Below are positions 36,922 through 54,868 of a stretch of 64,000 nt of DNA, piece after piece. Where the stretch lies: contig NZ_FOKW01000001.1 of the NCBI RefSeq assembly GCF_900112205.1, forward strand, positions 558,001-622,000. Reading direction: 5' to 3'. Position 1 is the first letter of the stretch. Every line of letters begins with the position of its first letter. The position numbers were made by a program, and so were the translations under genes. Source of the stretch: Natronobacterium haloterrestre (GTDB taxonomy: Archaea > Halobacteriota > Halobacteria > Halobacteriales > Natrialbaceae). The notes beneath the pieces were generated by a model. The model was not told the DNA's origin, made no database searches, and saw only the letters and a program-made list of their open reading frames with translations.

Positions 36922-38250
36922 TTACCGTTTTTCCGGGGAGTCTTCAACGGATTTACCCTCTTTGTCGTCCTTCTCATCGTACTCGTCGTCGTTCTTCTGA
37001 TCGTCTCTCTCGGTCTTCTCTTCAGCAGGCTTCTTCTGGTCGTCTTTCTCGGTTTTCTCCTCGGCGGACTTCTTCCCGATTTTCTCGGACTTCCCCTCAG
37101 CGGGCTCCTTCTTGTCGTCTTTCTCGATCTTCTCCTCAGCGGGTTCTTTCTTGTCGTCTTTCTCGATCTTCTTCTCAGCGGACTCTTTCTTGTCGTCTTT
37201 CTCGATCTTCTCCTCAGCGGGCTCTTTCTTGTCGTCTTTCTCGATCTTCTTCTCAGCGGACTCTTTCTTGTCGTCTTTCTCGATCTTCTTCTCAGCGGAC
37301 TCTTTCTTGTCGTCTTTCTCGATCTTCTCCTCAGCGGGCTCTTTCTCAGCTTTCTTCTCGAGAGGTTTCTCGTCGCTTCCCTGATCTTCGACGCTGACTT
37401 TTCCTTTGTCTTTCTGCTCGGCGACGGCTCGTTCGTCTACTTTCTTCACGCTATCACCTTTCTTTGCGTCCTCGTCGACCTTCTCGAGGCCCGTAACCGC
37501 GTCAGTCACGTCCACTGTCTCGAGCGTGATGACATACTTCGTGACGTGCTTCAGATCCGAATCGGCCGACAGCACGAGGAACGAACCGCTGGACTCGACC
37601 GCTGCTATCTCGTCTTCGTACGCGTCGATTCCCTCGGTCACCGCGGGCGGTATCTCGACGTCGACGTCGACGTTGACGTCGTCGACCGTACTTTCCGTCT
37701 CGCTCCCGTCGTCGGCCGCCGTCTCGCACTCGAGTTCGATCTCGGTTCGCTCGAGCGTCGCGTCCTCGCTTTCCGTCGAGAATTCGTACGCCCCGTCCGG
37801 TAGGTCGACGAACAGCAGGTAGCCGTCGGCCGGAACGGTGAGCGTAAGCGTGTACGTCGTGCCCGTAGCGTCGGTGTCGACGTCGGTCCGAAGCTGGGTC
37901 CGTGCCGATTGCGCATCGGCTTCAGCACCCGCCTCCGAGAACCGTTCGCTCTCGACCTGGATCGAGGTCGCGTCGTCACCGTCCCCCGTCCAGGCCGTGC
38001 TCACGTCTACGGCTTCGGTCGTCGGGTTCTCGACGAGTAGATAGTTCGTCCCGTCGTCACACCACTCCGTCACCGGGAGGTCGTCCCCGACCTCTTGCTC
38101 GGTCGCCTGGGCGGCTCCCCCTGCCGCCGCCCCAGCGGTCGCGGCGGTCATGCCCACGATCAGCATCGTCGTCACCAGCAGTAGCGACGGTTTCGGTAGC
38201 GCGGGTGTTGGTCCTCCCCGTTTCCTGTGCGATGGCTCTGTGTCTCTCAT
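36922..38250 (-). CDS. exported Lys/Glu-repeat protein
   Basis: A 442-aa protein. The hydrophobic stretch LLLVTTMLIVGMTAATAG (about residues 23-40) is a signal peptide or anchor. Residues ~55-260 form a beta-rich domain with two cysteines (TEWCDDGTNYLLVENP, ELECETAADD). From ~300 the protein is a tandem repeat of 13 residues (EPAEEKIEKDDKK / ESAEKKIEKDDKK), strongly charged but almost neutral overall. Such Lys density is unusual for a halophile. The family is not recognised. The end may be frameshifted. Confidence 0.7.
   Translation of the reverse strand: MRDTEPSHRKRGGPTPALPKPSLLLVTTMLIVGMTAATAGAAAGGAAQATEQEVGDDLPVTEWCDDGTNYLLVENPTTEAVDVSTAWTGDGDDATSIQVESERFSEAGAEADAQSARTQLRTDVDTDATGTTYTLTLTVPADGYLLFVDLPDGAYEFSTESEDATLERTEIELECETAADDGSETESTVDDVNVDVDVEIPPAVTEGIDAYEDEIAAVESSGSFLVLSADSDLKHVTKYVITLETVDVTDAVTGLEKVDEDAKKGDSVKKVDERAVAEQKDKGKVSVEDQGSDEKPLEKKAEKEPAEEKIEKDDKKESAEKKIEKDDKKESAEKKIEKDDKKEPAEEKIEKDDKKESAEKKIEKDDKKEPAEEKIEKDDKKEPAEGKSEKIGKKSAEEKTEKDDQKKPAEEKTERDDQKNDDEYDEKDDKEGKSVEDSPEKR
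37098..37336 (-). repeat. 39-bp tandem repeats encoding a 13-residue Lys/Glu unit
   Basis: The boundary cag-cgg recurs at 37098, 37137, 37176, 37215, 37254, 37293 and 37332, i.e. six perfect 39-bp steps, with more degenerate units continuing down to about 37000. Two unit variants (EPAEEK and ESAEKK) alternate, which fits expansion by duplication. Confidence 0.85.
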
Positions 38251-41600: not shown

Positions 41601-41999
41601 ATGCGAATGGAGCTCCGGGTCTGCAAGCACTGCTACGAGGGGGACCACGGCAATCCGCGGAAGACGGCGGTGACGAACGACATGGTCGAATGTGCCCGGA
41701 CGATCCGGGAGTACAAGGACCTGATCGAGATCGACTCGCTGTACGTGACGATGGTCGAGGAGGGCGACAGCGGCGGCGCGGAGGCGCTGTCGGTCTACGT
41801 CGCGAGTATCCGCGAGAACCAGGTAGAGATCAACGACACGCAACTCGTCATGGAGGACGACGACGACAACGTCCTCGTCTATCCCGAACCCGAGGACATC
41901 CTCGAGGTGCTGACGCGCAACCTCGACCAGATCGCCGATCAGACGCGCCAGGACGTCTCGGTCGAACTCTCCCCGGAGAGCGCGGAGATCCTCACCTGA
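41601..41999 (+). CDS. conserved haloarchaeal protein with N-terminal CxxC
   Basis: A 132-aa protein starting MRMELRVCKHCYEGDHGN. The CKHC pair could bind zinc. The body is mixed alpha/beta (SLYVTMVEEGDSGGAEALSV, LVYPEPEDILEVLTRNL) with no known catalytic motif. I do not recognise the family. The TATA-like cttatcag near 41571 is about 25-30 nt upstream of the ATG, so the message is leaderless. An ATG two codons later is also possible. Confidence 0.75.
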   Translation: MRMELRVCKHCYEGDHGNPRKTAVTNDMVECARTIREYKDLIEIDSLYVTMVEEGDSGGAEALSVYVASIRENQVEINDTQLVMEDDDDNVLVYPEPEDILEVLTRNLDQIADQTRQDVSVELSPESAEILT

Positions 42000-42087: not shown

Positions 42088-42348
42088 ATGGGATTTCGAA
42101 CCGCAGTCGAGCACAACCCCCTGGTCGCGTTCGGCCTCCTGTTCGCGGCGGTGTGGACCGGCGTCGTCGGGGTTCAGATCGTCAGCCAGATGCGTGGGGT
42201 CACGCCCGGTAGCTGGGTCGGCCAGCACGGATTCGGCGGACTGATGGGCCTGATCGTGATGGGCGCGTTCCTGGCGCTCGTCCTCGTCGCGTTCGCCGAA
42301 CTCGGCGAGCCGGATCCCGCGCCGGCGGAGTGGCCGCCGGAGGAGTGA
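42088..42348 (+). CDS. small two-helix membrane protein
   Basis: An 86-aa protein with hydrophobic segments LVAFGLLFAAVWTGVVGVQI and 'GLIVMGAFLALVLVAFAEL' separated by a short polar turn, and an acidic C-terminus. No motif is recognised. It is one of four small genes in tandem on this strand. Confidence 0.7.
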   Translation: MGFRTAVEHNPLVAFGLLFAAVWTGVVGVQIVSQMRGVTPGSWVGQHGFGGLMGLIVMGAFLALVLVAFAELGEPDPAPAEWPPEE

Positions 42349-42455: not shown

Positions 42456-42821
42456 ATGACGTCGCCGATCGCCATCTCCGTCAGCGACCGGTTCCGTGAT
42501 GCCGCGGCCGAGTGGGGCGACGACCGCCTCATGGACGTCGAGGACGCCCTCGAGGTCAAGGCCGAACAGGCGCTGCTCGAGATCGAACACCTCGTGGCCG
42601 GCGAGACCGACGTCACCTTCGAGGTCGACGTCGACGGCGGGACGATCCGCCACGAGCCGAGCGACGACCTCGCCGCGTTCCTCGAGCGCCAGGCCAACGC
42701 ACACGGCGTCGACCCCGCGGCGGTCCTCGAGATGCACGTCGACCTGTTCGCGCGGGCGTTCCTCGAGGACGGGGGCGACGCGGCGGAATCGACGCCGGAC
42801 GACCCCCGTCCCGGTCGGTAG
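42456..42821 (+). CDS. small acidic protein of unknown function
   Basis: A 121-aa protein with 'ALEVKAEQALLEIEHLVAGE' and DVTFEVDVDGGTIRHEPSDD followed by a helical region (LAAFLERQANAHGVDPAAVL). No cysteines or membrane helix. The pattern looks like a small globular alpha/beta protein; no family recognised. Confidence 0.65.
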   Translation: MTSPIAISVSDRFRDAAAEWGDDRLMDVEDALEVKAEQALLEIEHLVAGETDVTFEVDVDGGTIRHEPSDDLAAFLERQANAHGVDPAAVLEMHVDLFARAFLEDGGDAAESTPDDPRPGR

Positions 42822-43134: not shown

Positions 43135-43767
43135 TCAGGCCATCCCGGTCGCGATCTCCTCCTCGAACGCGACGTAGCCCTCGAGTACGTCGGCGACCGC
43201 TGCGTAGAACGGTTCGTCCGTTCGCTCGCGGACGTCGTCCGCGAGGTCGTCGATCCACTCCGAGAGGTGTTCCTGGTGGAAGACCCGCTGGTAACCGAAC
43301 GTTTCCTCGTAGCCCTCGCCTTGTCGCCGGACGAGATTCCGGAGGAAGGCCAGCTCTACGGCGACGTAATCGTTCTCCTCGGGGTAGTCCTCCGGCGGGG
43401 ACCAGCCGGCGGCCCCGTAGCTGGCCTCGACCTCGGCCAGCCCCGCTCCGCGAAAGTCGGTGTCCTCGCGGTAGTAGGTCTCGTGGGGGAGGATCGGCGG
43501 CCGCGGCCCGACGAACAGGCGGGTGAACTCCCGCTCGAGGTCGTCCCGGACCGCCTCGACGTCGCGGCCCTCGTTGTCCGCGACGAACGCCTCGAGTCGC
43601 TCGAACCCCCGATCGAGCGGCTCGCCGACGCTCCCGTCCGGGACGGCGATCTCGTCGTCCAGCAGCGTCTCGACGAACTCCCGGCTCGGCACGTCGGCGA
43701 ACGCGTCGATCAGGAAGTTCACCAGCTCGAGCCGCGCCTCGTAGAGGGCCTCCTGGTCGACGCTCAT
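43135..43767 (-). CDS. TorD-like chaperone of the formate dehydrogenase locus
   Basis: A 210-aa TorD/DmsD-family protein: REFTRLFVGPRPPILPHETY, then YYREDTDFRGAGLAEVEAS and a helical tail with DYVAVELAFLRNLVRRQGEG and FHQEHLSEWIDDL. It overlaps the start side of the upstream 716-aa Fe-S protein gene by 4 nt (ATGA), so both belong to one unit. The most likely client is the Tat-exported catalytic subunit encoded divergently at 46168. Confidence 0.88.
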   Translation of the reverse strand: MSVDQEALYEARLELVNFLIDAFADVPSREFVETLLDDEIAVPDGSVGEPLDRGFERLEAFVADNEGRDVEAVRDDLEREFTRLFVGPRPPILPHETYYREDTDFRGAGLAEVEASYGAAGWSPPEDYPEENDYVAVELAFLRNLVRRQGEGYEETFGYQRVFHQEHLSEWIDDLADDVRERTDEPFYAAVADVLEGYVAFEEEIATGMA

Positions 43768-45914
43768 CGGCTCTCACCTCCGGCTTCGCCGCGGTCGTAC
43801 AGCAGTTGCGCGCGGCAGTCGTCGCAGTAGTCGAAGACGCTGCCCGACGCGGTCGGTACGAGCCCGGCGACGCGGTCGCCGACCTCCCCCTCGATCTTCC
43901 GTGCGGTCCCCTCGCTCGCGAACGGCTCGCCGCAGTGGAGACATTCCCGCATCTCCCCCTCGTAGACCTCGGTCCAGGGCTCGCCGTCGCTGCGTTCCGG
44001 CAGCAGGGAGAGGTGGAGCCCGTCGTGCATCGTGATGGCGTCCTCGACGCAGCCCTCCTCGCAGAGCCCGCAGTTGACACAGCGTTCGTGGTTGAACTCG
44101 AGGACGGCCTCGTCCTCGTCGCGCCGGATCGCGTCGGTCGGGCAGATGGTCGAACACGTCGGCGTGAACGTGCAGGCGTCGTCGACGGCCATCCGGCCGA
44201 AGTCCTTCAGTCCGCGGATCACCTCGCGGTCGGGGTCGACGTGCTCGAGGATCGCCCGCACGCTCTCTAACGTCCAGCCGTGGCTGTCGAAGGGAGGGTT
44301 CTCCCGGTCGGGATCGGTCTCTATCCCCCCGGTTGCCTCGTGCTCGCCGTCGGGGATCGGCGAGGGCTCGAGTTCGACGGCGAACGTCGAGATCGCTTCC
44401 ACGAACGCGCCCGGGTCGGCCGCGTCGGGCGCGAAGAACGCGACCCGTTCGCCGAGGTCGAGGTCCCGGGTCGCCCGGTTGAGCCGGTCGACGAGGTCGG
44501 CCTTCGGCTCCGGGCCGGAGTGTCGGCAGTCGCCGCCACAGCCGACGATCGCGACGCCGTCGGCCCCGCAGGCGAGCGCGTGCATCGCGTGGGCCTCGCC
44601 GACGGTGTCCGTACAGTTCACGCGCACCGGGAGGATCGGCGGGTACTCGACGTCGACCTTCCCCGCGGCCGAGAGCCGGCCGTACTCCGTGAGCGCGTCG
44701 TCGGCCTCCTCGGAGCAGACGAAGGCGACGATCGGTGCGTCGACGTCCGACTCGGACCGGCCCAGCAGCCAGCCGCCCTCCTCGTCGGTCGGCCGGCACA
44801 GCGCCTCGACCTCGCGGGCGATGCGCTCGTTCGACGGCTCGCGAAGCCGGGTCGCCCCGGTCGGACAGGAACTGGTACAGGCCCCGCAGTTCTGACACAT
44901 GTCCTCGTGGAACTCGACCTCGTCGATCCGGGACCGCTCGACGGCGTCGTGAGGGCAGGCCTCGACGCACTCGTTGCAGCCCATCTGGCTCGAGTCGCCC
45001 GCGGCGCAGACGTCCATCTCGAGGTCGAGGTGGGCGGGTTTCTCGATCCCGCCGAGGTGCTTTCGCACGGCCGAGATCGTCGCCGGGTCGATGGGCGCGG
45101 TGTAGAACCCGACGCGACCGCCCCGCGTACGGCGGTCGGCGGCCGGGTAGACGATCTGGTCGAACTCGAGGGTCCGTTCGACGCCGTCCATCTCGATGGC
45201 GTCGGTGGGGCAGACGTCGGTCCACGCGCCGTCGGGCGCGTCGGGATCGATGTCGACGGGGTAGCGGGTGACCTTTCCGTCCGGGCCATCGTGGACGCAC
45301 TTCATACAGGAGATGCAGTCCTCGGTGACGCGGGACTCGAGGCGGACGGTGAACTCGCCGAAGCGGCCGTCGACGCCGACGACGCGGCCCCGCTCGATCG
45401 TGACGTCCCCGAGGTCGGCCCCGCTGTCGACGTACTCGCGGCCGTCGGCGATCAGCGTCACGTCGGCGTCGTCGGCCAGCGCGGCGGCCGTCTCGGGGTC
45501 GCCGACGACCGCGACGCTGTCGCCGGCGTCGCTCGTGATCGTCCGGGGAATCGACTCGGCTTCGAGGCCGGCCGTGCGGGCGTTGATCATGCGCGCAGTC
45601 TTTGCCGTCGCGCCCGCCTCGTCGTGGACCCAGCCCGCGCCCTCGCGCTGGTCGACGAACGAGACTGCGTCCGGGTGGACGCCCTGCGCTTCCGCGACGC
45701 GCTCGAGTTTCCGCTGGACGCCTTCTTCGGGGCAGGTGACGATCACCTCGTCCAGGTCGTACTCGTCGATCACCTCCTCCATCGCGGGCAACCCGTCGGC
45801 ACAGAGCAGGCTCGAACTCGCCGCGACGTCGACGCCTTCGATGCCCTCGCGCGCAGCCTCGAGGTCGACCTCGCACGTGTCGGCACAGGAACAGACGAAG
45901 CTCCCTACGTTCAT
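43764..45914 (-). CDS. HdrA-like/ferredoxin/MvhD fusion electron-transfer protein
   Basis: A 716-aa multi-domain protein. Residues 1-120 match the HdrA N-terminal region (VCSCADTC, VTCPEEG, WVHDEAGATAKTARMI). Residues ~131-195 hold what remains of the flavin domain: VAVVGDPETAAAL lacks the GxGxxG dinucleotide motif. Ferredoxin groups follow (C200, C203, C206; C313, C316, C320; C340, C343, C346, C350). An MvhD-type domain spans about 394-520 with C400, C434, C449, C459, C463 (GCGGDCRHSG). A third ferredoxin region (C591-C632) and a final CxxC pair of pairs (C658, C661, C697, C700) end the protein. No signal peptide: cytosolic. It is divergent from fdhA. Confidence 0.85.
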   Translation of the reverse strand: MNVGSFVCSCADTCEVDLEAAREGIEGVDVAASSSLLCADGLPAMEEVIDEYDLDEVIVTCPEEGVQRKLERVAEAQGVHPDAVSFVDQREGAGWVHDEAGATAKTARMINARTAGLEAESIPRTITSDAGDSVAVVGDPETAAALADDADVTLIADGREYVDSGADLGDVTIERGRVVGVDGRFGEFTVRLESRVTEDCISCMKCVHDGPDGKVTRYPVDIDPDAPDGAWTDVCPTDAIEMDGVERTLEFDQIVYPAADRRTRGGRVGFYTAPIDPATISAVRKHLGGIEKPAHLDLEMDVCAAGDSSQMGCNECVEACPHDAVERSRIDEVEFHEDMCQNCGACTSSCPTGATRLREPSNERIAREVEALCRPTDEEGGWLLGRSESDVDAPIVAFVCSEEADDALTEYGRLSAAGKVDVEYPPILPVRVNCTDTVGEAHAMHALACGADGVAIVGCGGDCRHSGPEPKADLVDRLNRATRDLDLGERVAFFAPDAADPGAFVEAISTFAVELEPSPIPDGEHEATGGIETDPDRENPPFDSHGWTLESVRAILEHVDPDREVIRGLKDFGRMAVDDACTFTPTCSTICPTDAIRRDEDEAVLEFNHERCVNCGLCEEGCVEDAITMHDGLHLSLLPERSDGEPWTEVYEGEMRECLHCGEPFASEGTARKIEGEVGDRVAGLVPTASGSVFDYCDDCRAQLLYDRGEAGGESR

Positions 45915-46167: not shown

Positions 46168-49100
46168 ATGAGCGTGCAGGACGATCCGGTCACCATCGAC
46201 CTCGACCGGCGCTCGTTCATGAAAGCCAGCGCCCTCGCGGGAGGGCTGTTCCTCGGCGGCGGCGCGTCCGGGCACGCGCTGGGCGGAACCCAGGAGTCGG
46301 ACGCGGACGACGGCGTTTCGAGCGACACCGAGACCGAGAAGGTTATCTGTAACTACTGTGCCGTCGGCTGTGGCTTCAAGGCGGTCAAGGACGGCAACTC
46401 CTTCGTCGGTCAGGAGCCGTGGTTCGAGAACCCGATCAACAACGGCTCGCTCTGTTCGAAGGGGGCGGGCATCCTCGAGACCGAGCACTCGCCCAAGCGA
46501 CTGAAACACCCGATGCGCAAGGTCGACGGCGAGTGGCGTCGGGTCTCCTGGCAGGACGCCTACGAGGAGATCGCGGACACGTGGGAGGAGACGATCGACG
46601 AGTACAGCCGCGAGAGCGTCATGCTGATGGGGAGCGCCCACCACTCGAACGAGGCTGCCTACGCCAGCCGCAAGTTCGCGGCGTTCATGGGGACGAACAA
46701 CGTCGACCACCAGGCGCGGATCTGTCACTCGCCGACCGTCACCGGCCTCGCCAACACGTGGGGCTTCGGCGCGATGACGAACACGATCAACGACTACCGC
46801 AACTTCGATCTGCTCATCATCCTCGGGCAGAACCCGGCCGAGTCCCACCCGATCGCGATGCAGCACATCCTCGAGGGGCAGGCCCGCGGCGGGACCATCG
46901 TCTCCATCGACCCCCGGTACACGAAGACCTCGGCCCACGCCGACTACTTCTACCGCCTCCGGCCGGGGACGGACGTCGCCCTGGTCTTCGGCCTGCTCAA
47001 CTACATTCGCGAGCAGGGCGAACTCGACAACGAGTTCCTCGAGGGCCGCGTGATGGGGTGGCCCGACGTCGAGTCCGAACTCGACCAGTACGACCTCGAG
47101 ACGGTCTCCGATATCACCTGGATCGACGAGGGCGACCTCGAGGAGATCGGCGACCTGATCGTCGAGAACAGCCCGCACATCCAGGTCGAGTGGGCGATGG
47201 GCGGCACCCAGCACAACAACGGGACCCAGAACATCCGCGCGTACGCCATCTTCAGCCTCGCGACCGGGAGCGCGGCCCGGTCCGGCGGCGGCCTGCAGGT
47301 GATGCGCGGCCACGCGAACGTGCAGGGTGCGACCGACATGGGCGTCGACGCGAGCATCCTGCCGGGCTACTACGGCGTCGATGCACCCGGATCGTGGGAG
47401 CACTGGGCCGACGTCTGGGACCGCAGCCCCTGGACCAGCGGGAGTACCTCATTCGAGGAACTGTACGACCGGTTCGAGCGGATGCCCGACGAGATGTGGC
47501 AGGGTCTCGAGGTGCCGGCCCAGGTCGAGGAGGAGGACTCGGATCCGGAGGGCGAGGGCGAGGAACCCGAAACAGAGGCCGAGGAGGAGGGCCAGGACGG
47601 CGGCCTCGACCAGGAGACGGCACTCGAGGAACCGGACCCGCAGTCGATGATGTTCCAGAAGGGGCTGACCGTCGCCCGCTGGTACGAGGCCGCACTCGGA
47701 CAGGAGGATCGCCTGCTCGAGTCGGACCTCTATCAGCCCGATCCGCTGAAGATGGCGTTCTTCTGGGGCCACTCGGCGAACTCCATCTCCGAGATGGACC
47801 GGATGAAACAGGCGATGGAGGAACTCGACCTGCTGGTCGTCGTCGACGTCTTCCCCGCGGTCGCCGGCACCCTCCCGGACGACGCGGACGTCCTCCTGTT
47901 GCCGGCCTCGAGCCAGTACGAGCACGTGCGGTCCGTGACTAACTCCCACCGGTCGGTCCAGTGGAGCGAGGCGGTCGCGACGCCGGCACACAACTCGAAG
48001 CCGGACCTCCAGATCTTCCAGGAACTGGCCCAGTACATGGGCTTCGGCGAACACTTCGACTGGGGGACCGGGCAGGCGGTCCACAACGGCCGCAGTTCCT
48101 ACGAGGACACGCTCCGGGAGATCAACCTCGGCGTCCGGTCGATCGGCTACCAGCAATCGCCCGAGAAACTCCAGCAACACCACGAGTACGACTGGGCGTT
48201 CAACACCGACGATCTGCGGGCCGAGAACACGGGGACGCCCGTCGACGGCGACTACTGGTCGCTGCCCTGGCCCTACTGGGGCGACGACCACCCCGGCTCG
48301 CCGATCATCTGGACGAAGGAGGCCGACCCCCGCGACGGCGGCCACGACTTCCGGGAGAACTGGGGGACGCAGGCCCCGACGCCCGACGAGTGGGAGGAGA
48401 TGAACGTCGACCAGGAGTACCCGATGCAGGAGACCTACGATCAGCGGGGAGAGGAGGGCCTCGACCTGATCGCCGATTCGTTCGAGGCGCCGTGGTGGGA
48501 CGACCGTGAGATCGAGGGCGTCCCGTCGTATCCGGGCTACGCGACGTTGCTGCCGGACGACCTGACGAACCCGTCGACGCAGACGACCCCGGTCGAGATG
48601 GCCCTCGACGAGGAGGAGTCGGTGTACGACGCGGCACAGGCCGTCGACGAGGAGTACGGCGACGAGATCGAGGTCGATCCCTCCGAGTACGAGGAGTACG
48701 ACAACCCGCAACCGGATCCGCCGACCGGACGCGGCAAGGCGCGGGCCGTCGTCTGGAACTTCCTCGATACGGTCCCGGTCCACCGCGAACCCGTCGAGAG
48801 CCCCCGGCCGGACCTCGTCGAGGAGTGGCCGGCCAACGGCGAGCAGAACAACTTCTGGCGGCTCGACCAGAACAACGCCACGGTCCAGCAGCGGGCGACC
48901 GAGGCCGTCCACACGGAACTCGGCAGCGACACCGAGAGCGGCCGGACGGTGATCCTCACCTCCGGCCGGCAGGTCGAACATCAGGGCGGCGGCGCCGAGA
49001 CGCGGAACAACGAGTACACCGCCGACCGCCAGCCCCACATGTACGCGGAGATCAGCCCGAACCTGGCCGAGGAGTTGGACGTCGTCGGGGGCGAGGACCA

Positions 49101-49485
49101 CGTCGTCGTCGAGTCCGCGGATAAGGGGACGATCCTCGTCAAGGCGAAGGTGACCAACCGCGTCAACGACGAGGAGATCTTCCTGCCGTACCACTGGGGC
49201 GGCGTCTTCCACGGCGAGGACCGGAGTCCGAACTGGCCCGACGGCACCGAACCGCTCGCGATCGGCGAGAGCGCGAACATCATCACGCCGAGCGGGTTCG
49301 ACGCCGAGACCCAGATGCAGGAGACGAAGTCGGGCGTCGTCCACGTCCAGAAGGCGACCCAGGAGGTCGTCGACGCCCACGACATGGAGTTCATCGATTA
49401 CCCGCAGGACCGGAACGGGCTCGGCACGCAGAAGCAGTACGACGTCCGCGAGTGGGATCTGTACGAAGGAGGCGAACGACTATGA
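46168..49485 (+). CDS. fdhA: formate dehydrogenase catalytic (alpha) subunit, Tat-exported
   Basis: A 1105-aa molybdenum/tungsten-bis-MGD enzyme. Tat signal DRRSFMKASALAGG at residues 13-26. The N-terminal [4Fe-4S] motif is CNYCAVGC...CSKGA. The FDH active-site signature ARICHSPTVTGLANTWGFGA has Cys (C186) in the selenocysteine position with the catalytic His next to it. 'TNTINDYRNFDLLIILGQNP' follows, matching FDH and related enzymes. The C-terminal dinucleotide-binding domain is at 'ADRQPHMYAEISPNLAEELD'. It is longer than usual because of an acidic insertion near residue 450-490 and a long loop. ATGA links it to the Fe-S subunit. Confidence 0.92.
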   Translation: MSVQDDPVTIDLDRRSFMKASALAGGLFLGGGASGHALGGTQESDADDGVSSDTETEKVICNYCAVGCGFKAVKDGNSFVGQEPWFENPINNGSLCSKGAGILETEHSPKRLKHPMRKVDGEWRRVSWQDAYEEIADTWEETIDEYSRESVMLMGSAHHSNEAAYASRKFAAFMGTNNVDHQARICHSPTVTGLANTWGFGAMTNTINDYRNFDLLIILGQNPAESHPIAMQHILEGQARGGTIVSIDPRYTKTSAHADYFYRLRPGTDVALVFGLLNYIREQGELDNEFLEGRVMGWPDVESELDQYDLETVSDITWIDEGDLEEIGDLIVENSPHIQVEWAMGGTQHNNGTQNIRAYAIFSLATGSAARSGGGLQVMRGHANVQGATDMGVDASILPGYYGVDAPGSWEHWADVWDRSPWTSGSTSFEELYDRFERMPDEMWQGLEVPAQVEEEDSDPEGEGEEPETEAEEEGQDGGLDQETALEEPDPQSMMFQKGLTVARWYEAALGQEDRLLESDLYQPDPLKMAFFWGHSANSISEMDRMKQAMEELDLLVVVDVFPAVAGTLPDDADVLLLPASSQYEHVRSVTNSHRSVQWSEAVATPAHNSKPDLQIFQELAQYMGFGEHFDWGTGQAVHNGRSSYEDTLREINLGVRSIGYQQSPEKLQQHHEYDWAFNTDDLRAENTGTPVDGDYWSLPWPYWGDDHPGSPIIWTKEADPRDGGHDFRENWGTQAPTPDEWEEMNVDQEYPMQETYDQRGEEGLDLIADSFEAPWWDDREIEGVPSYPGYATLLPDDLTNPSTQTTPVEMALDEEESVYDAAQAVDEEYGDEIEVDPSEYEEYDNPQPDPPTGRGKARAVVWNFLDTVPVHREPVESPRPDLVEEWPANGEQNNFWRLDQNNATVQQRATEAVHTELGSDTESGRTVILTSGRQVEHQGGGAETRNNEYTADRQPHMYAEISPNLAEELDVVGGEDHVVVESADKGTILVKAKVTNRVNDEEIFLPYHWGGVFHGEDRSPNWPDGTEPLAIGESANIITPSGFDAETQMQETKSGVVHVQKATQEVVDAHDMEFIDYPQDRNGLGTQKQYDVREWDLYEGGERL

Positions 49486-50177
49486 CCCAAGAACGGAGCG
49501 ACCGGACCGGACAGGTGATGAGCCAGGGCGTGATGAGCACGGGGGAGGGGATGCGGATCTTCCCCGACGTCGAGGCCTGTATCGACTGTGGCGGCTGTGT
49601 CGTCGCCTGTAAACGCACCTGGGACCGCGAGATCGACAATCAGCGCATCGACATCATGACCATGGCCGAGGGGACCGCCGGCCCGCAGGGCGAAAACGCC
49701 GACAAGACCGGTCGCCTCGAGGCCGGCGAGAACCCCGGCGAGACGAGCCTGCCGATGCAGTGTTACCACTGCCACAACGCCCCCTGCGTCTCGGTCTGCC
49801 CGACGAACGCCCTCCAGAAGGAGGACGACGAGTTCGTGACCGTCCACGAGGACCTCTGTGTCGGCTGTCAGTACTGCCTGTCGGGCTGTCCGTTCGGCGC
49901 GCCGCAGTTCCCCGACAGCGACGACGGGTCGGCCCAGATCTTCGGCACCGGCGGCATCATGGACAAGTGTACCGGCTGCCGCCAGCGACAGGACGTCGGG
50001 AAAGGGCCGGCCTGCGCCGAGGAGTGTGCCACCGACGCGATCCTGGTCGGCGGCGCGGGCGAGATCGCGGACGAACTCGAGTCCCGGGACAGCCAGCCGT
50101 TCTTCAACCGGGAGGCGATGGAGATCATCTTCGGCGAGGAGGAAGCGCAGTTCTTCGAGTCGGGTGATGCGGGATGA
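49482..50177 (+). CDS. formate dehydrogenase Fe-S (beta) subunit
   Basis: A 231-aa protein read from the ATG at 49482 that overlaps the fdhA stop. Four clusters are expected from CIDCGGCVVACKRTW, CYHCHNAPCVSVCP, CVGCQYCLSGCP and CTGCRQRQDVGKGPACAEEC. This is the FdhB/FdnH-type relay between the catalytic subunit and the membrane cytochrome. It has no C-terminal membrane helix, unlike E. coli FdnH, so the anchor must come from the downstream subunits. Confidence 0.93.
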   Translation: MTQERSDRTGQVMSQGVMSTGEGMRIFPDVEACIDCGGCVVACKRTWDREIDNQRIDIMTMAEGTAGPQGENADKTGRLEAGENPGETSLPMQCYHCHNAPCVSVCPTNALQKEDDEFVTVHEDLCVGCQYCLSGCPFGAPQFPDSDDGSAQIFGTGGIMDKCTGCRQRQDVGKGPACAEECATDAILVGGAGEIADELESRDSQPFFNREAMEIIFGEEEAQFFESGDAG

Positions 50178-50818
50178 GCGACGATCGACCGCCCGACGAC
50201 CGCGACCGCACGGCGGACGCCGCGGACGACGCACCCGGGGACGCCTCGAGCGCCGACGACCGGACCGACGGGCAACGGCCCGACGGCGGCCGCGGCGAGG
50301 AACGATCACCGGAACAGGGAGAGTCACGACCCGAGACGGACGAGTCGACGCCGGAGTCGGACGAACGACCGGAACCCGAGCGCGAACCCGACCACGCCGA
50401 CGCCGCGTCCGGCGGTCGCTCCGATCGCATCGCGTTCTGGATCAGCGCGCTGATCGGCCTGGCGCTTGCGGCCGGCTCCATCGCGTTCGTCTCCGGATGG
50501 GCCCCTTTCTTCGAGGAGATCCTGCGGATCCGCCCCTCCGTCGAGGGCGGTGGGATCGGGGCCGACTGGGTCGCCGGCAACACCGAAGCCGTCCTCGAGT
50601 GGCTGATCGTGCTCGTCCACCTCGCGGACGTCGTCATGGGGATCTTCATCCTCCTGATGGTGTTCATCCACTGGGCGGCGTTCCGGCGGCTCGGCGCGCG
50701 GATGCAACCGCCGGGCGGAACGCGTACGCAGGAGGCCGCGGCGGCGACGGACGGCGGGGACCGGACCCGAAGCGACGACCGCGGCGACGGTCGAGAGCGC
50801 GGGGGTGATCGCCCGTGA
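50174..50818 (+). CDS. two-helix membrane protein in the formate dehydrogenase operon
   Basis: A 214-aa protein. The first ~85 residues are a disordered acidic stretch, then two membrane helices (IAFWISALIGLALAAGSIAF and EWLIVLVHLADVVMGIFILL) with His residues in the second (VHLADVV, FIHWAAF) that could ligate haem. The C-terminus is acidic again. I do not recognise the family. ATGA and GTGA overlaps put it between the Fe-S subunit and the cytochrome b, where it may be a structural or quinone-site subunit. Confidence 0.75.
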   Translation: MSDDRPPDDRDRTADAADDAPGDASSADDRTDGQRPDGGRGEERSPEQGESRPETDESTPESDERPEPEREPDHADAASGGRSDRIAFWISALIGLALAAGSIAFVSGWAPFFEEILRIRPSVEGGGIGADWVAGNTEAVLEWLIVLVHLADVVMGIFILLMVFIHWAAFRRLGARMQPPGGTRTQEAAAATDGGDRTRSDDRGDGRERGGDRP

Positions 50819-51909
50819 CCAACCTCGATCACGGCAAGTTCTCGCGGGTCACCACGACCTTCCACTCGCTGCTGGCGCTGACCGTGTTCGTCCTGTTCTT
50901 TACGGGGTACGCCATCGCGTTCAACACCGAACTGTGGTGGCTGGTGGAACTGATGGGCGGCAACGAGGGGGTGCTCTCGATCCACCGGGCGGCCGGCTTC
51001 GCGCTGATCGCCCTCACCGGGTTCTGGGTTCCGTTCATGCTGCTCCGATCCTCGAGTAGGGGGAACTTCAGTGCGATCCTCCCCAGCCCGGACGACCTGT
51101 GGGCGTTCCTCCAGGACGTCAAGTTCGCCCTCGGGATGGCCGACGAGCGCCACCCCGCGGCACGCCAGTTCGCGGGGTTCAAGGCCGAAGAGACGCCGCT
51201 GATATCCTACATCGGGAAAGGCGTCATCTGGATCTTCACCGTGGAGCTGATCCTGTTGATGATCACCGGGTTGCTCATCTGGCGCAAGACCTGGCTGATC
51301 GACGCCTACAACTCCCAGTCGGCCGCGATGGCGTTCGTGGCGTTCCACGGTCTGCTCGGGATCATCATGCTGATGGGCGTGATGTTCCACACGTTCGAGC
51401 ACGGGCTCCACCCCGCGTTCTACCCGGTCGAGATGAAGGCGTTCCTCCCGAAAGACCAGACGCCGAACTTCCACGACGACCCCGACGAGTACGAGACGAC
51501 CGGGATCGAACGGCTCCGCCGCCGCCCCTCCTGGGGGTGGGCGATGAACGTGACGGCCGTACTGGCTGTCGTCGGGATCGTCAGCGTGATGATGGCGAGC
51601 CTCGAGTACGGCGGCTATCCGGTCCCCGACAGGCTGGTGTTCGGCGAGGGAAGCGTCCTCCGGACGATCGGGATCAACGCCGGCATCTTCGTGTTGCTGC
51701 TCGGCCTCGTGCTCTCGATGTACGGCAACGTGTTGCGGGCGCGGTACCTGCGCCAGCGACGGGAACGGGAGCGGGAACGACAGCCCTCGGGGACGGCCGC
51801 CGACGGCGGCGACCCCGGCGGAACGGCGCGATCCGACGGCGGCGAACCAACCGAACGGGACGAGCGCGGCGACCCCGGTGACGGGGAGGACGGCACCAGC
51901 GACGGCTAA
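50815..51909 (+). CDS. formate dehydrogenase cytochrome b (gamma) subunit
   Basis: A 364-aa membrane protein of the FdnI/cytochrome b561 type. Residues ~16-33 (FHSLLALTVFVLFFTGYAI) give helix 1 with a His, SIHRAAGFALIALTGFWVPF helix 2, and 'AFHGLLGIIMLMGVMFHTFE' helix 4 with several His likely to bind two haems b. A fifth hydrophobic segment (NAGIFVLLLGLVLSMYG) precedes an acidic tail with a short Arg/Glu run. The GTG start overlaps the upstream stop. It passes electrons from formate to the quinone pool. Confidence 0.9.
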   Translation: MTNLDHGKFSRVTTTFHSLLALTVFVLFFTGYAIAFNTELWWLVELMGGNEGVLSIHRAAGFALIALTGFWVPFMLLRSSSRGNFSAILPSPDDLWAFLQDVKFALGMADERHPAARQFAGFKAEETPLISYIGKGVIWIFTVELILLMITGLLIWRKTWLIDAYNSQSAAMAFVAFHGLLGIIMLMGVMFHTFEHGLHPAFYPVEMKAFLPKDQTPNFHDDPDEYETTGIERLRRRPSWGWAMNVTAVLAVVGIVSVMMASLEYGGYPVPDRLVFGEGSVLRTIGINAGIFVLLLGLVLSMYGNVLRARYLRQRRERERERQPSGTAADGGDPGGTARSDGGEPTERDERGDPGDGEDGTSDG

Positions 51910-52274: not shown

Positions 52275-53045
52275 CTACTCTAGCTCCCAGTCCGCCTTCT
52301 CCGCGGCCGTCTCGAGCGGGACGAACTCCCAGTCGGCGGCGTCCGCGATCGCCTCATCGCTCGAGTCGGGCCGATCGTTGTCGGCGTCCTCGAGGCCGAC
52401 GACGACCATCCGCTCGGCGTAGAACATCGACGTCCGGTCGATCCCCCGGAGTCGCTCGGCGGGGTCGCTGCCGCTGCCGGTGAAGAAGTCGGCGTCGACG
52501 CCGTGCGTTCGCTGGAACTTCGTGATGCGGTGGGTCTCGACGTCGCCGACGATGCCGATCCAGTCGGCCCACCCCGATGCGGCCGCGAAGACTGCCGCGG
52601 GGTCGGCGAGTCGCCCGAGCGCGTCGTACGTGAACGCCATCGTCATGTCGTCGACGCCGCCGCCGTGCGGCCCTTCGGCGGCCGAGCCGGCGGCTCGCGG
52701 TTCGCCGTTCGGTTCGCCTCCGGTTCCGACGTCCGTTCCGGTCCCGGTTCCGGCGACCGCACCCGCACCGGCCCCGCCGTGCTCGGTCGGGATGCCGGCC
52801 GGTTTGCTCGCGTCGTCCCGCGGAACCCGGGGCGCTGGCTGGGAGTCGGGCTCGGTCGCGTCCACGTCGTCGTCCCCGGAATCGGCCGTCCCCGGTTCCG
52901 TCGTGGCACCTGCCGTGCGGGTCGGCTCCGGTTCCTCCTCCGGCGTTCCCTCGCCGCGCCAGAACCAGTCGCCGCGGTTCGCGTCGGGCTCTTCCTCTTC
53001 GTCGGCGTCGGTCTCGAGGTCGTCGAGGTCGATTCGGTCGGTCAC
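52275..53045 (-). CDS. conserved haloarchaeal protein downstream of the AOR homologue
   Basis: A 256-aa protein. Residues 1-130 are disordered and acidic; residues ~133-256 form a compact domain (MTMAFTYDALGRLADPAAVF, IGIVGDVETHRITKFQRTHG, VDADFFTGSGS, WEFVPLETAAEKADWELE). I recall similar domains in other haloarchaea (a DUF7124-type domain) but cannot confirm. It overlaps the AOR homologue by 4 nt (ATGA), so both are expressed together. Confidence 0.75.
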   Translation of the reverse strand: MTDRIDLDDLETDADEEEEPDANRGDWFWRGEGTPEEEPEPTRTAGATTEPGTADSGDDDVDATEPDSQPAPRVPRDDASKPAGIPTEHGGAGAGAVAGTGTGTDVGTGGEPNGEPRAAGSAAEGPHGGGVDDMTMAFTYDALGRLADPAAVFAAASGWADWIGIVGDVETHRITKFQRTHGVDADFFTGSGSDPAERLRGIDRTSMFYAERMVVVGLEDADNDRPDSSDEAIADAADWEFVPLETAAEKADWELE

Positions 53046-54868
53046 GGGCGGTCACCTCCGGGTTCCCCGTCGCCGATCGACTCCGGCACCGCGAGATCCG
53101 CCAGCCCCAGTCGCTCGAGCGTCGCCCGGGTCGGCCGCCCCCGCTCGTCCCAGCCGCGTCGCTCGTAGTAGCGATCGAGCATCGTCTCGAACGCGTCGGG
53201 ATCGATCGCGGCCCCGTCGTTGGGGCCGCCCTCGAGCGGTTCGGTCAACCGCTCGGGGAGGGCGTCGTCCGCGCGGGAGAATCCCTCGCGGACGTTGAAC
53301 AGGCGGACGAGCGTCCAGACCCGCTCGCCGATACGCTCGAGGGCGGCGGGTTCACGCTCGCGGCCGACGGCCTCGAGCCACTCCGCGATGTGTGCGGGCG
53401 GGAGCGCATCGGCGACGAAGTCGTCGGCAACGAGGCTCCAGCACAGGGCCCGCCGGTTCTGCTCCTCGACGACCGCGGCGACGCGGTCGGCCGTCGTCCA
53501 GTCCGCGCCCGCGAGCGCTTCGGCTTCGACCGGCCGCGCCCGCCGGTGGCAGGCCCCGCGGTCGCTGGTCGCGTACGCGAGCGCCATCGCCGACGCGCCG
53601 CGGGGATCGTAGGAGGAGAGGGCCATCCCCTTGACCGACGGGATCAGGTCCTCGCCGCCGTACTCCGCGGCCGCCGCCTCGACGCCGTCTGCGAGGGCGT
53701 CGCCCAGCGGGGTCGACCGTTCGGCGATCTCCTCGATGAGGTCGCGGGCCGCCGCCTCGTCGCCGAACTCGAGATCGCGCTCGAGGTGGTCCTCCTGGCT
53801 CGCGCGGATCGCCCACGCGACCGCGTTGCCGCTCGAGATCACGTCTTGAGCGAGCCGATCGCAGATCGATCCGAGCGCCGCGACGGCGTCGAAGTCGTCG
53901 ATCCCGAGCCCAGAGCCGAGGGAGATGGGGGTCGCGCCGCGGGGGACGGTCTCCTCTCCGTCCTCCCCTTCCCCGGACTCGCCGTCGGCTCCGCTCGCGC
54001 TCCGGACCCGGAACCCGCCCGGAACCGGGTCGTCGCCCCGTTCCCGCCCGGACGCGGCGGCGCGAGCGGCCTCGATTCCGACGTCTTCCGCGCCGTCGAA
54101 CGCGCCCTCCTGCCACCCCCGGGTCGGGAGCACGCCGACCTCGTCCGCGAAGTCGACAGTCTCGAGGGTCTCGCTGGCAGCCTGCCAGCGACCGATGTCG
54201 TCGTCGGCGAAGGCGGCCTCGTCCCGTCGGCGAAGCGTACGAAGGTCGTCGGTCGGCGTCGGCGGCCCGTCCCGGGCCACGACGGCCTTCAGGCGCTTCG
54301 CGCCCATTACCGCGCCCGCGCCGCCGCGGCCGGCGTGGTGGTCGCCGCCCTCGGACGCGATCGTCGCGTACGAGACGCGTCGCTCGCCGGCGGGGCCGAT
54401 ACACGCGACCGCCGCGTCCGGGAACCGCTCGTCGGTCTCGCGCGCGTCGAGCCCCCACAGGTCGCCGGCCGGTTCGACCGTCACCTTGCCGGCGGCGACC
54501 GAGAGGGCGACCGGCCGCTCCGCCCGCCCGGTCACGAGCACGCCGACGTGGTCCTCGAGCGAGCCCGCGAGCCGACTCGCCATCTCCCCGCCCGCGTAGG
54601 AGTCGAGGAAGGTGCCGGTCAGCGGCGACCGGGTGACGACGACGTACCGCTGTTCGCCTGGCAGGTAGCCCGTCAGCGGGCCAACGAGGAAGAGGAGGAC
54701 GGCGTCGTCGCCGAACGGGTCGGTCCCCGGCTCGAGTTCCTCGTAGAGGTAGCGAGCGCCGAGTCCCTTCCCCCCGAGATACGACCGGAGCCACGCCTCG
54801 GGCACCGGCTCGCTCGTCGCGGACTCGTCGCCCAGATCGACGCGGACGATCGCATCTCGCCGTGCCAT
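53042..54868 (-). CDS. aldehyde ferredoxin oxidoreductase family protein without the Fe-S Cys triad
   Basis: A 608-aa AOR-family protein. The N-terminal tungstopterin domain shows LRSYLGGKGLGARYLYEELE, DPFGDDAVLLFLVGPLTGYL, 'SPLTGTFLDSYAGGEMASRL' and 'YATIASEGGDHHAGRGGAGA'. The C-terminal domain has LALAYATSDRGACHRR-type sequence (MALAYATSDRGACHRRARPV). The usual CxxCxxxC [4Fe-4S] motif is absent: only four Cys occur in the whole protein, and the one in RRALCWSL may match the fourth ligand. It probably keeps pterin binding but not the cluster. Function uncertain. ATGA links it to the gene at 52275. Confidence 0.82.
   Translation of the reverse strand: MARRDAIVRVDLGDESATSEPVPEAWLRSYLGGKGLGARYLYEELEPGTDPFGDDAVLLFLVGPLTGYLPGEQRYVVVTRSPLTGTFLDSYAGGEMASRLAGSLEDHVGVLVTGRAERPVALSVAAGKVTVEPAGDLWGLDARETDERFPDAAVACIGPAGERRVSYATIASEGGDHHAGRGGAGAVMGAKRLKAVVARDGPPTPTDDLRTLRRRDEAAFADDDIGRWQAASETLETVDFADEVGVLPTRGWQEGAFDGAEDVGIEAARAAASGRERGDDPVPGGFRVRSASGADGESGEGEDGEETVPRGATPISLGSGLGIDDFDAVAALGSICDRLAQDVISSGNAVAWAIRASQEDHLERDLEFGDEAAARDLIEEIAERSTPLGDALADGVEAAAAEYGGEDLIPSVKGMALSSYDPRGASAMALAYATSDRGACHRRARPVEAEALAGADWTTADRVAAVVEEQNRRALCWSLVADDFVADALPPAHIAEWLEAVGREREPAALERIGERVWTLVRLFNVREGFSRADDALPERLTEPLEGGPNDGAAIDPDAFETMLDRYYERRGWDERGRPTRATLERLGLADLAVPESIGDGEPGGDRP

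Follow-up and report, generated by a model that had tools for sequence, protein, structure and literature searches.

HdrAL, a putatively flavin-less HdrA-MvhD-HycF-like iron-sulfur protein encoded with TorD beside an exported formate dehydrogenase of Natronobacterium haloterrestre: a candidate maturation partner

We analyzed a stretch of 64,000 nucleotides from the haloarchaeon Natronobacterium haloterrestre (assembly GCF_900112205.1, contig NZ_FOKW01000001.1, positions 558,001 to 622,000 of the forward strand), which is called the window below and whose own coordinates are used throughout. It encodes a 716-amino-acid iron-sulfur protein, here called HdrAL, in which parts related to HdrA, MvhD and HycF follow each other in one chain. 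The gene lies between that of a TorD-type chaperone and the operon of a formate dehydrogenase (FDH). The genes at the centre of the locus are the following.

43764..45914, minus strand: HdrAL, flavin-less HdrA - MvhD - HycF-like iron-sulfur protein, 716 aa, ATG start
43135..43767, minus strand: TorD/NarJ-family chaperone (PF02613, 95.7 bits), ATGA overlap with HdrAL
46168..49485, plus strand: FdhA, catalytic subunit for a molybdenum or tungsten bis(pyranopterin guanine dinucleotide) cofactor (Mo/W-bisPGD), with twin-arginine signal DRRSFMK and catalytic Cys-His RICHS
49452..50177, plus strand: FdhB, ferredoxin subunit (closest NCBIfam model FDH3_beta, below its cut-off)
50174..50818, plus strand: small membrane protein of the FDH operon (synteny, hydropathy)
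50815..51909, plus strand: cytochrome b membrane subunit (PF01292, 75.5 bits)

The HdrAL reading frame is real and not a chance frame, as full-length conservation was found by tblastn in about 27% of the haloarchaeal genomes (108 of 391). HdrAL and TorD were taken to be co-translated because their genes share an ATGA overlap in the window, and in 57 of 66 loci TorD is the same-strand neighbour of HdrAL, in most cases separated from it by 0-65 bp. Neither a signal peptide nor a transmembrane stretch was found in HdrAL, which contains 34 cysteines. Its parts, from the N-terminus to the C-terminus, are as follows.

45522..45914, minus strand: HdrA-type N-terminal domain, residues 1-131, with Cys 8, 10, 38 and 61 (hhalign to HdrA2, hmmsearch to HdrA chains, cysteine counts)
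45318..45521, minus strand: reduced first half of the flavin domain, residues 132-199, left as a beta-alpha-beta unit without GxGxxG (alignment, structure prediction)
45195..45317, minus strand: inserted ferredoxin with one 4Fe-4S motif left, residues 200-240 (Cys 200, 203, 206 and 235)
45009..45194, minus strand: reduced second half of the flavin domain, residues 241-302 (62 residues against ~222 in HdrA2)
44799..45008, minus strand: HdrA C-terminal ferredoxin with two 4Fe-4S motifs, residues 303-372
44367..44732, minus strand: MvhD/FlpD domain, residues 395-516, with Cys 400, 434, 459 and 463 (PF02662, Foldseek to MvhD chains)
43809..44201, minus strand: HycF-like module of a ferredoxin and a four-cysteine metal site, residues 572-702 (hmmsearch, Foldseek)
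43815..43943, minus strand: CxxC-x35-CxxC within this module, residues 658-700, equivalent to the HycF metal site

A sequence-only reading of this protein had proposed an HdrA N-terminus, a collapsed flavin domain lacking GxGxxG, up to five iron-sulfur groups, an MvhD domain and C-terminal CxxC pairs. Our results confirm this description, with a correction to the flavin domain. When compared with solved structures by phmmer and hmmsearch, the start of HdrAL matched the HdrA N-terminal iron-sulfur domain, with cluster cysteines at C8, C10, C38 and C61, of which C61 is not kept in all relatives. In the Pfam search, FlpD/MvhD was recognized at residues 395-515 with 66.4 bits (PF02662, cut-off 22.3), and ferredoxin domains were placed at 311-354 and at 577-630. 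Foldseek likewise matched MvhD chains, with a target-normalized template-modelling score (TMt) of ~0.69, and the four MvhD cysteines are kept in 47 of 47 haloarchaeal members of the types A and B that are defined below. The five iron-sulfur groups can be counted as one motif at residues 200-235, two at 303-350 and two at 581-622, one of which has three cysteines only. The N-terminal site and the MvhD cysteines come in addition, so that six or seven centres are predicted in all. In the C-terminal HdrA ferredoxin, the first cysteine is displaced (C-x9-C-x2-C-x3-CP), a signature common to the bacterial relatives, whereas the three-cysteine first motif of the last ferredoxin is a feature of type A.

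The relation to HdrA was examined with hhalign against 11 HdrA2 proteins encoded in genomes of its own phylum. HdrAL was colinear with them over residues 1-516 against 1-770 (probability 99.8, E 1.8e-30). The order of the parts is that of type Ia HdrA, or HdrA2 (PMC12054007), namely an N-terminal domain, a split flavin domain with an inserted ferredoxin, a C-terminal ferredoxin and MvhD. However, HdrAL differs from this type by its flavin remnants, by retaining one of the two clusters of the inserted ferredoxin, by the HycF-like C-terminus and by the lack of HdrBC partners. The collapse of the flavin domain is thus real, although its earlier estimated size has to be corrected: the stretches that flank the inserted ferredoxin comprise 68 + 62 residues in HdrAL and 102 + ~222 in HdrA2. 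Among 103 HdrA-invariant positions in the flavin and insert stretch, 58 fall into gaps and 17 are kept in HdrAL. GDPETA and a four-residue deletion stand where HdrA has GxGxxG, no GxGxx[GA] motif occurs anywhere in HdrAL, and the later flavin motifs are gone. From these missing residues we infer that HdrAL carries no flavin adenine dinucleotide (FAD).

We also predicted the structure of HdrAL by AlphaFold2 with 53 family members (predicted local distance difference test, pLDDT, 89.2; predicted template-modelling score, pTM, 0.84; residue numbers in the model are one lower than in the protein). Recovery of a flavin site would have spoken against a flavin-free protein. A complete thioredoxin-reductase-like FAD-binding domain was not recovered, and flavoproteins occurred among the Foldseek matches as partial and weak hits only. 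The search against the PDB instead returned seven HdrA chains (E 1e-14 to 1e-18), HycF of formate hydrogenlyase (FHL) and four MvhD-type chains. Because the template-modelling scores to HdrA were low (~0.27, root-mean-square deviation ~27 A), these matches were used at the level of single domains, and the placement of the domains was not read as HdrA-like. The usual HdrBC partners were sought elsewhere in the genome and none were found. The genome has no HdrA2 at 1e-60 and one FlpD, and its CCG proteins are GlpC, a 2-hydroxyacid-dehydrogenase type and a membrane-fused type. The NCBIfam model of HdrA2 (NF040770) gave 101.3 bits against a family cut-off of 1100. A true HdrA is therefore ruled out by the flavin site, the family cut-off and the absence of HdrBC. 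Without a flavin site, HdrAL is no bifurcating HdrA and at most an electron relay. As its ancestor we propose an HdrA-MvhD fusion, from which the flavin was lost and to which a HycF-like end was added.

This end can be compared with HycF, subunit 6 of E. coli FHL. A profile of HdrAL residues 560-716 matched HycF (7z0s_F) over its residues 31-164 with an E value of 8.1e-18 by hmmsearch, and the profile of the whole family did so with 1.3e-14. Since the match spans residues 31-164, the homology extends over the two ferredoxin motifs as well as the final CxxC-x35-CxxC. The four cysteines of the two pairs (658/661 and 697/700), already noticed in the sequence-only reading, are invariant in 53 of 53 aligned family members, bacteria included, and are the most conserved part of the family; their spacing was judged from alignments, and a regular-expression count was discarded because it picked up ferredoxin motifs. 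In the FHL structure, the corresponding site (CxxC-x34-CPxC) holds a metal ion, tentatively iron, opposite the molybdenum subunit FdhF, and the authors suggested that it regulates the binding of FdhF according to redox state (PMC9474812). Given this homology, HdrAL may dock on FdhA through its HycF-like module. HycF differs in that it belongs permanently, as an electron-transfer subunit, to a membrane hydrogenase whose FDH is cytoplasmic; no hydrogenase is present here.

The sequence-only reading had suggested a search for this architecture in other haloarchaea. A unique architecture is ruled out, as the family is widespread: besides the 108 haloarchaeal genomes, distant homologues were found in bacterial 'FDH3' operons. 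We distinguished three haloarchaeal types and the bacterial homologues; the family tree is long-branched, and the deep order of types A/B, type C and bacteria was not relied on. Type A, to which HdrAL of the window belongs, stands in haloarchaea with an FDH that has a cytochrome b. Type B members (56-50% identical) sit with another molybdoenzyme that has an NrfD subunit, together with TorD, Mrp and MobA. In six such loci (L058, L063, L064, L065, L087 and L089), an Mrp/NBP35 ATPase gene and, usually, MobA come after HdrAL, and the Tat (twin-arginine translocation)-exported NrfD molybdoenzyme lies next to them. In Natronorubrum bangense, ars genes adjoin the type B locus. Type C members (~30% identical) and bacterial homologues (~25%) both occur in FDH3-like operons with TorD.

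The bacterial gene has been listed only as 'fer4' in operons of TorD/DmsD and fdhGHI ('FDH3') (PMC4464133). Its product, annotated as a 4Fe-4S binding protein, resembles HdrAL over most of its length, shares the displaced-cysteine ferredoxin signature and the HycF-like end, and adjoins TorD and a Tat-exported FDH as HdrAL does. It differs in that it often lacks cysteines in the N-terminal and MvhD-like parts and gives no FlpD match. The bacterial loci differ also in carrying DUF3305, DUF3306 and a Tat-target protein, and often FdhD or MoeA. Genes for MobA, Mrp/NBP35, FdhD or MoeA flank type B, type C and bacterial loci. Thus, by homology and by its TorD and Tat-exported FDH context, HdrAL falls among the fer4-type proteins. 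The pair of HdrAL and TorD is kept while the enzyme varies between the cytochrome-b FDH, the NrfD-type molybdoenzyme and the bacterial FDH3. Twin-arginine signals were present in all representative catalytic subunits inspected.

Co-occurrence with FDH was then counted. FdhA of the window type was found in 85 of the 391 genomes, and HdrAL was present in all 85 (hypergeometric p ~1e-64, a value that ignores phylogeny). At the genus level, the co-occurrence was 28 of 28 (p ~1e-13). Another FDH type was found in 13 of 317 genomes, and 12 of these have a member of the HdrAL family: ten were detected by the first search and two more (G205 and G300) by profile. In several genomes, type A HdrAL accompanies type C FDH, so that the partner has been exchanged and one is still present.

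These enzymes are found in genomes that lack the bacterial maturation factors of FDH. FdhD (PF02634) was found in none of the 391 haloarchaeal genomes, that of N. haloterrestre also being negative, while 8 of 14 controls, methanogens included, were positive. HdrAL itself contains no FdhD domain. FdhE (PF04216) was likewise found in 0 of 391, a weaker result, because its control was positive in E. coli only. A 2023 review has independently stated that halobacteria often have FDH genes yet lack fdhD, and has posed as a question which proteins substitute for it (PMC10609526). HdrAL would fall into the same functional gap as FdhD and FdhE, although no sequence relation to either was found. As a simple replacement of FdhD it is ruled out, since bacterial loci carry both the homologue and FdhD.

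A closer parallel in role is NapF. This cytoplasmic polyferredoxin binds NapA, whose Fe-S assembly before Tat export depends on it (PMC10609526). Like NapF, HdrAL has multiple 4Fe-4S motifs, no export signal or membrane span, and an exported molybdenum enzyme as its genomic partner. The architecture and the target are different, and the likeness concerns the role; homology is not claimed. We therefore suggest, with a probability of roughly 0.55, that HdrAL is a dedicated cytoplasmic, NapF-like maturation partner of Tat-exported Mo/W-bisPGD enzymes, which in the window is the respiratory FDH.

The process could be explained as follows. TorD would hold the FdhA precursor in the cytoplasm, and HdrAL, itself probably cytoplasmic, would bind this precursor together with TorD, most likely through the HycF-like module. 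Electrons may enter HdrAL from a cytoplasmic donor (ferredoxin or similar), perhaps via the parts derived from HdrA or MvhD. They would then reach the FdhA cluster and the cofactor, which would be reduced and receive its sulfido ligand. Alternatively, HdrAL may donate iron-sulfur clusters and so load the Fe-S centre of FdhA. In either case, the activated FdhA would be released and exit by the Tat pore. It has been shown in vitro that sulfide goes onto the bis(molybdopterin guanine dinucleotide) cofactor only when this is reduced (PMC12140954). That HdrAL supplies the electrons for such reductive sulfuration is a tentative part of the proposal. Doubtful, too, is the more specific FdhD-free route in which HdrAL and TorD, perhaps with the AOR-fold protein described below as a pterin carrier, reduce the Mo/W-bisPGD of the FdhA precursor for sulfide insertion before Tat export.

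Several observations weigh against a maturation role and lowered our confidence to the value given. Genome G045 encodes an FDH of the other type (locus L191, with a Tat signal and the Cys-His site) and TorD, and no member of the HdrAL family was found in the whole genome; therefore, an FDH of this kind does not in every case strictly require HdrAL. The bacterial homologue occurs in loci that also carry FdhD, and in some haloarchaeal loci (L103, L125, L131 and L144) HdrAL stands apart from FDH or TorD. Types B, C and the bacteria have lost different clusters, and the N-terminal, inserted and MvhD clusters are unevenly conserved, so that the internal wire is not uniformly conserved. Finally, a redox protein with seven centres exceeds what a simple carrier would need.

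The number of centres could rather suggest an electron wire in respiration or metabolism, by which HdrAL would carry electrons between FDH and a cytoplasmic ferredoxin or other enzyme without bifurcation. The sequence-only reading had reached such a conclusion. Its denial of bifurcation is upheld by the missing flavin site and the lack of HdrBC, and a wire would accord with the six or seven predicted Fe-S centres, with the known complexes in which MvhD and HdrA modules carry electrons and HycF of FHL conducts them from FDH, and with a gene that is always near FDH or another molybdoenzyme. The wiring of FDH itself was not supported. Only FdhA, and not HdrAL, carries an export signal, which would place them on opposite sides of the membrane, and because of this predicted topology a permanent FdhA-HdrAL wire is unlikely. 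Moreover, the FDH already has its own FdhB and cytochrome b, and the constant partner of HdrAL is TorD, which is no redox enzyme, while the same type of protein serves an NrfD-linked reductase in type B. We thus consider such a wire rather improbable.

The redox-dependent binding proposed for the HycF metal ion may inspire another explanation, in which the metal site or the clusters of HdrAL sense the redox state of either the cytoplasm or FdhA and, together with TorD, retain immature FdhA, without net delivery of electrons. The outstanding conservation of the C-terminal four cysteines and the co-translation with TorD are in accord with an export checkpoint of this kind. However, a conserved chain of up to seven centres is not required for it, and direct evidence is lacking; we regard this explanation as unlikely.

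A further candidate partner emerges from the remaining conserved genes of the locus, which are listed below.

52275..53045, minus strand: DUF7124 protein, conserved neighbour, paired with the AOR-fold gene
53042..54868, minus strand: AOR-fold protein without the CxxCxxxC cluster motif, conserved neighbour
42456..42821, plus strand: small conserved neighbour (synteny)
42088..42348, plus strand: small membrane protein, conserved neighbour (synteny, hydropathy)
41601..41999, plus strand: 132-amino-acid protein with CxxC (synteny)

Across families, the gene order is strongly conserved: FdhA, FdhB, the membrane protein and cytochrome b lie on one strand, HdrAL and TorD are divergent from them, and the small genes, DUF7124 and the AOR-fold gene accompany them. 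The 132-amino-acid protein had no Pfam match above cut-off; it is found close to HdrAL also where FDH lies at another place. HdrAL might be the electron partner of the AOR-fold protein and not of FDH, since type A loci keep the AOR-fold gene as a neighbour and two of the type C loci do so too, with the gene directly beside HdrAL. However, the CxxCxxxC motif of the 4Fe-4S cluster through which AOR would exchange electrons is missing in 62 of 64 orthologues, being kept in the two at type C loci L067 and L068, and no AOR match was found in the bacterial and type B loci examined. A partnership of this kind is very unlikely; the AOR-fold protein could be a pterin binder in which the exchange of electrons has been lost. 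Weakest of all is the view that HdrAL is a true HdrA whose flavin site is cryptic and that it bifurcates together with HdrBC from another place in the genome: colinearity with HdrA2 and the remaining beta-alpha-beta unit would fit it, but the deleted invariant positions, the lost GxGxxG, the partial flavoprotein matches and the lack of HdrBC leave it hardly any probability.

Elsewhere in the window (36922-38250, minus strand), we observed a protein predicted to be exported, in which KIEKDDKKE(S/P)AE(K/E) is repeated about seven times in near-identical copies.

The sequence-only reading had overlooked the TorD gene that is co-translated with HdrAL, the likeness of the C-terminal module to HycF, the relatives in bacteria and the missing FdhD, and had known of no described role for this architecture. 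Indeed, in the open-access literature (subscription papers lay outside the search), we found no paper that gives a function to the family. However, the gene product is annotated by NCBI, as a 'hydrogenase iron-sulfur subunit' in haloarchaea and a '4Fe-4S binding protein' in bacteria, and the former name is misleading for HdrAL. As far as the open-access literature shows, it is new to trace HdrAL to HdrA-MvhD, to recognize its HycF-like end, to join the haloarchaeal and bacterial proteins in one family and to link them to the FdhD gap.

HdrAL and TorD are thus a named, co-occurring and co-translated candidate pair for FDH maturation in halobacteria without FdhD. For the unexplained protein of bacterial FDH3 operons, an origin is offered in an HdrA-MvhD fusion that lost its flavin, and if the FdhD-free route is true, the bacterial 'fer4' proteins would be reduced relatives of HdrAL. 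If HdrAL is a maturation partner, the Hdr electron-transfer scaffold of methanogenesis would have been re-used for enzyme maturation, and not for energy metabolism.

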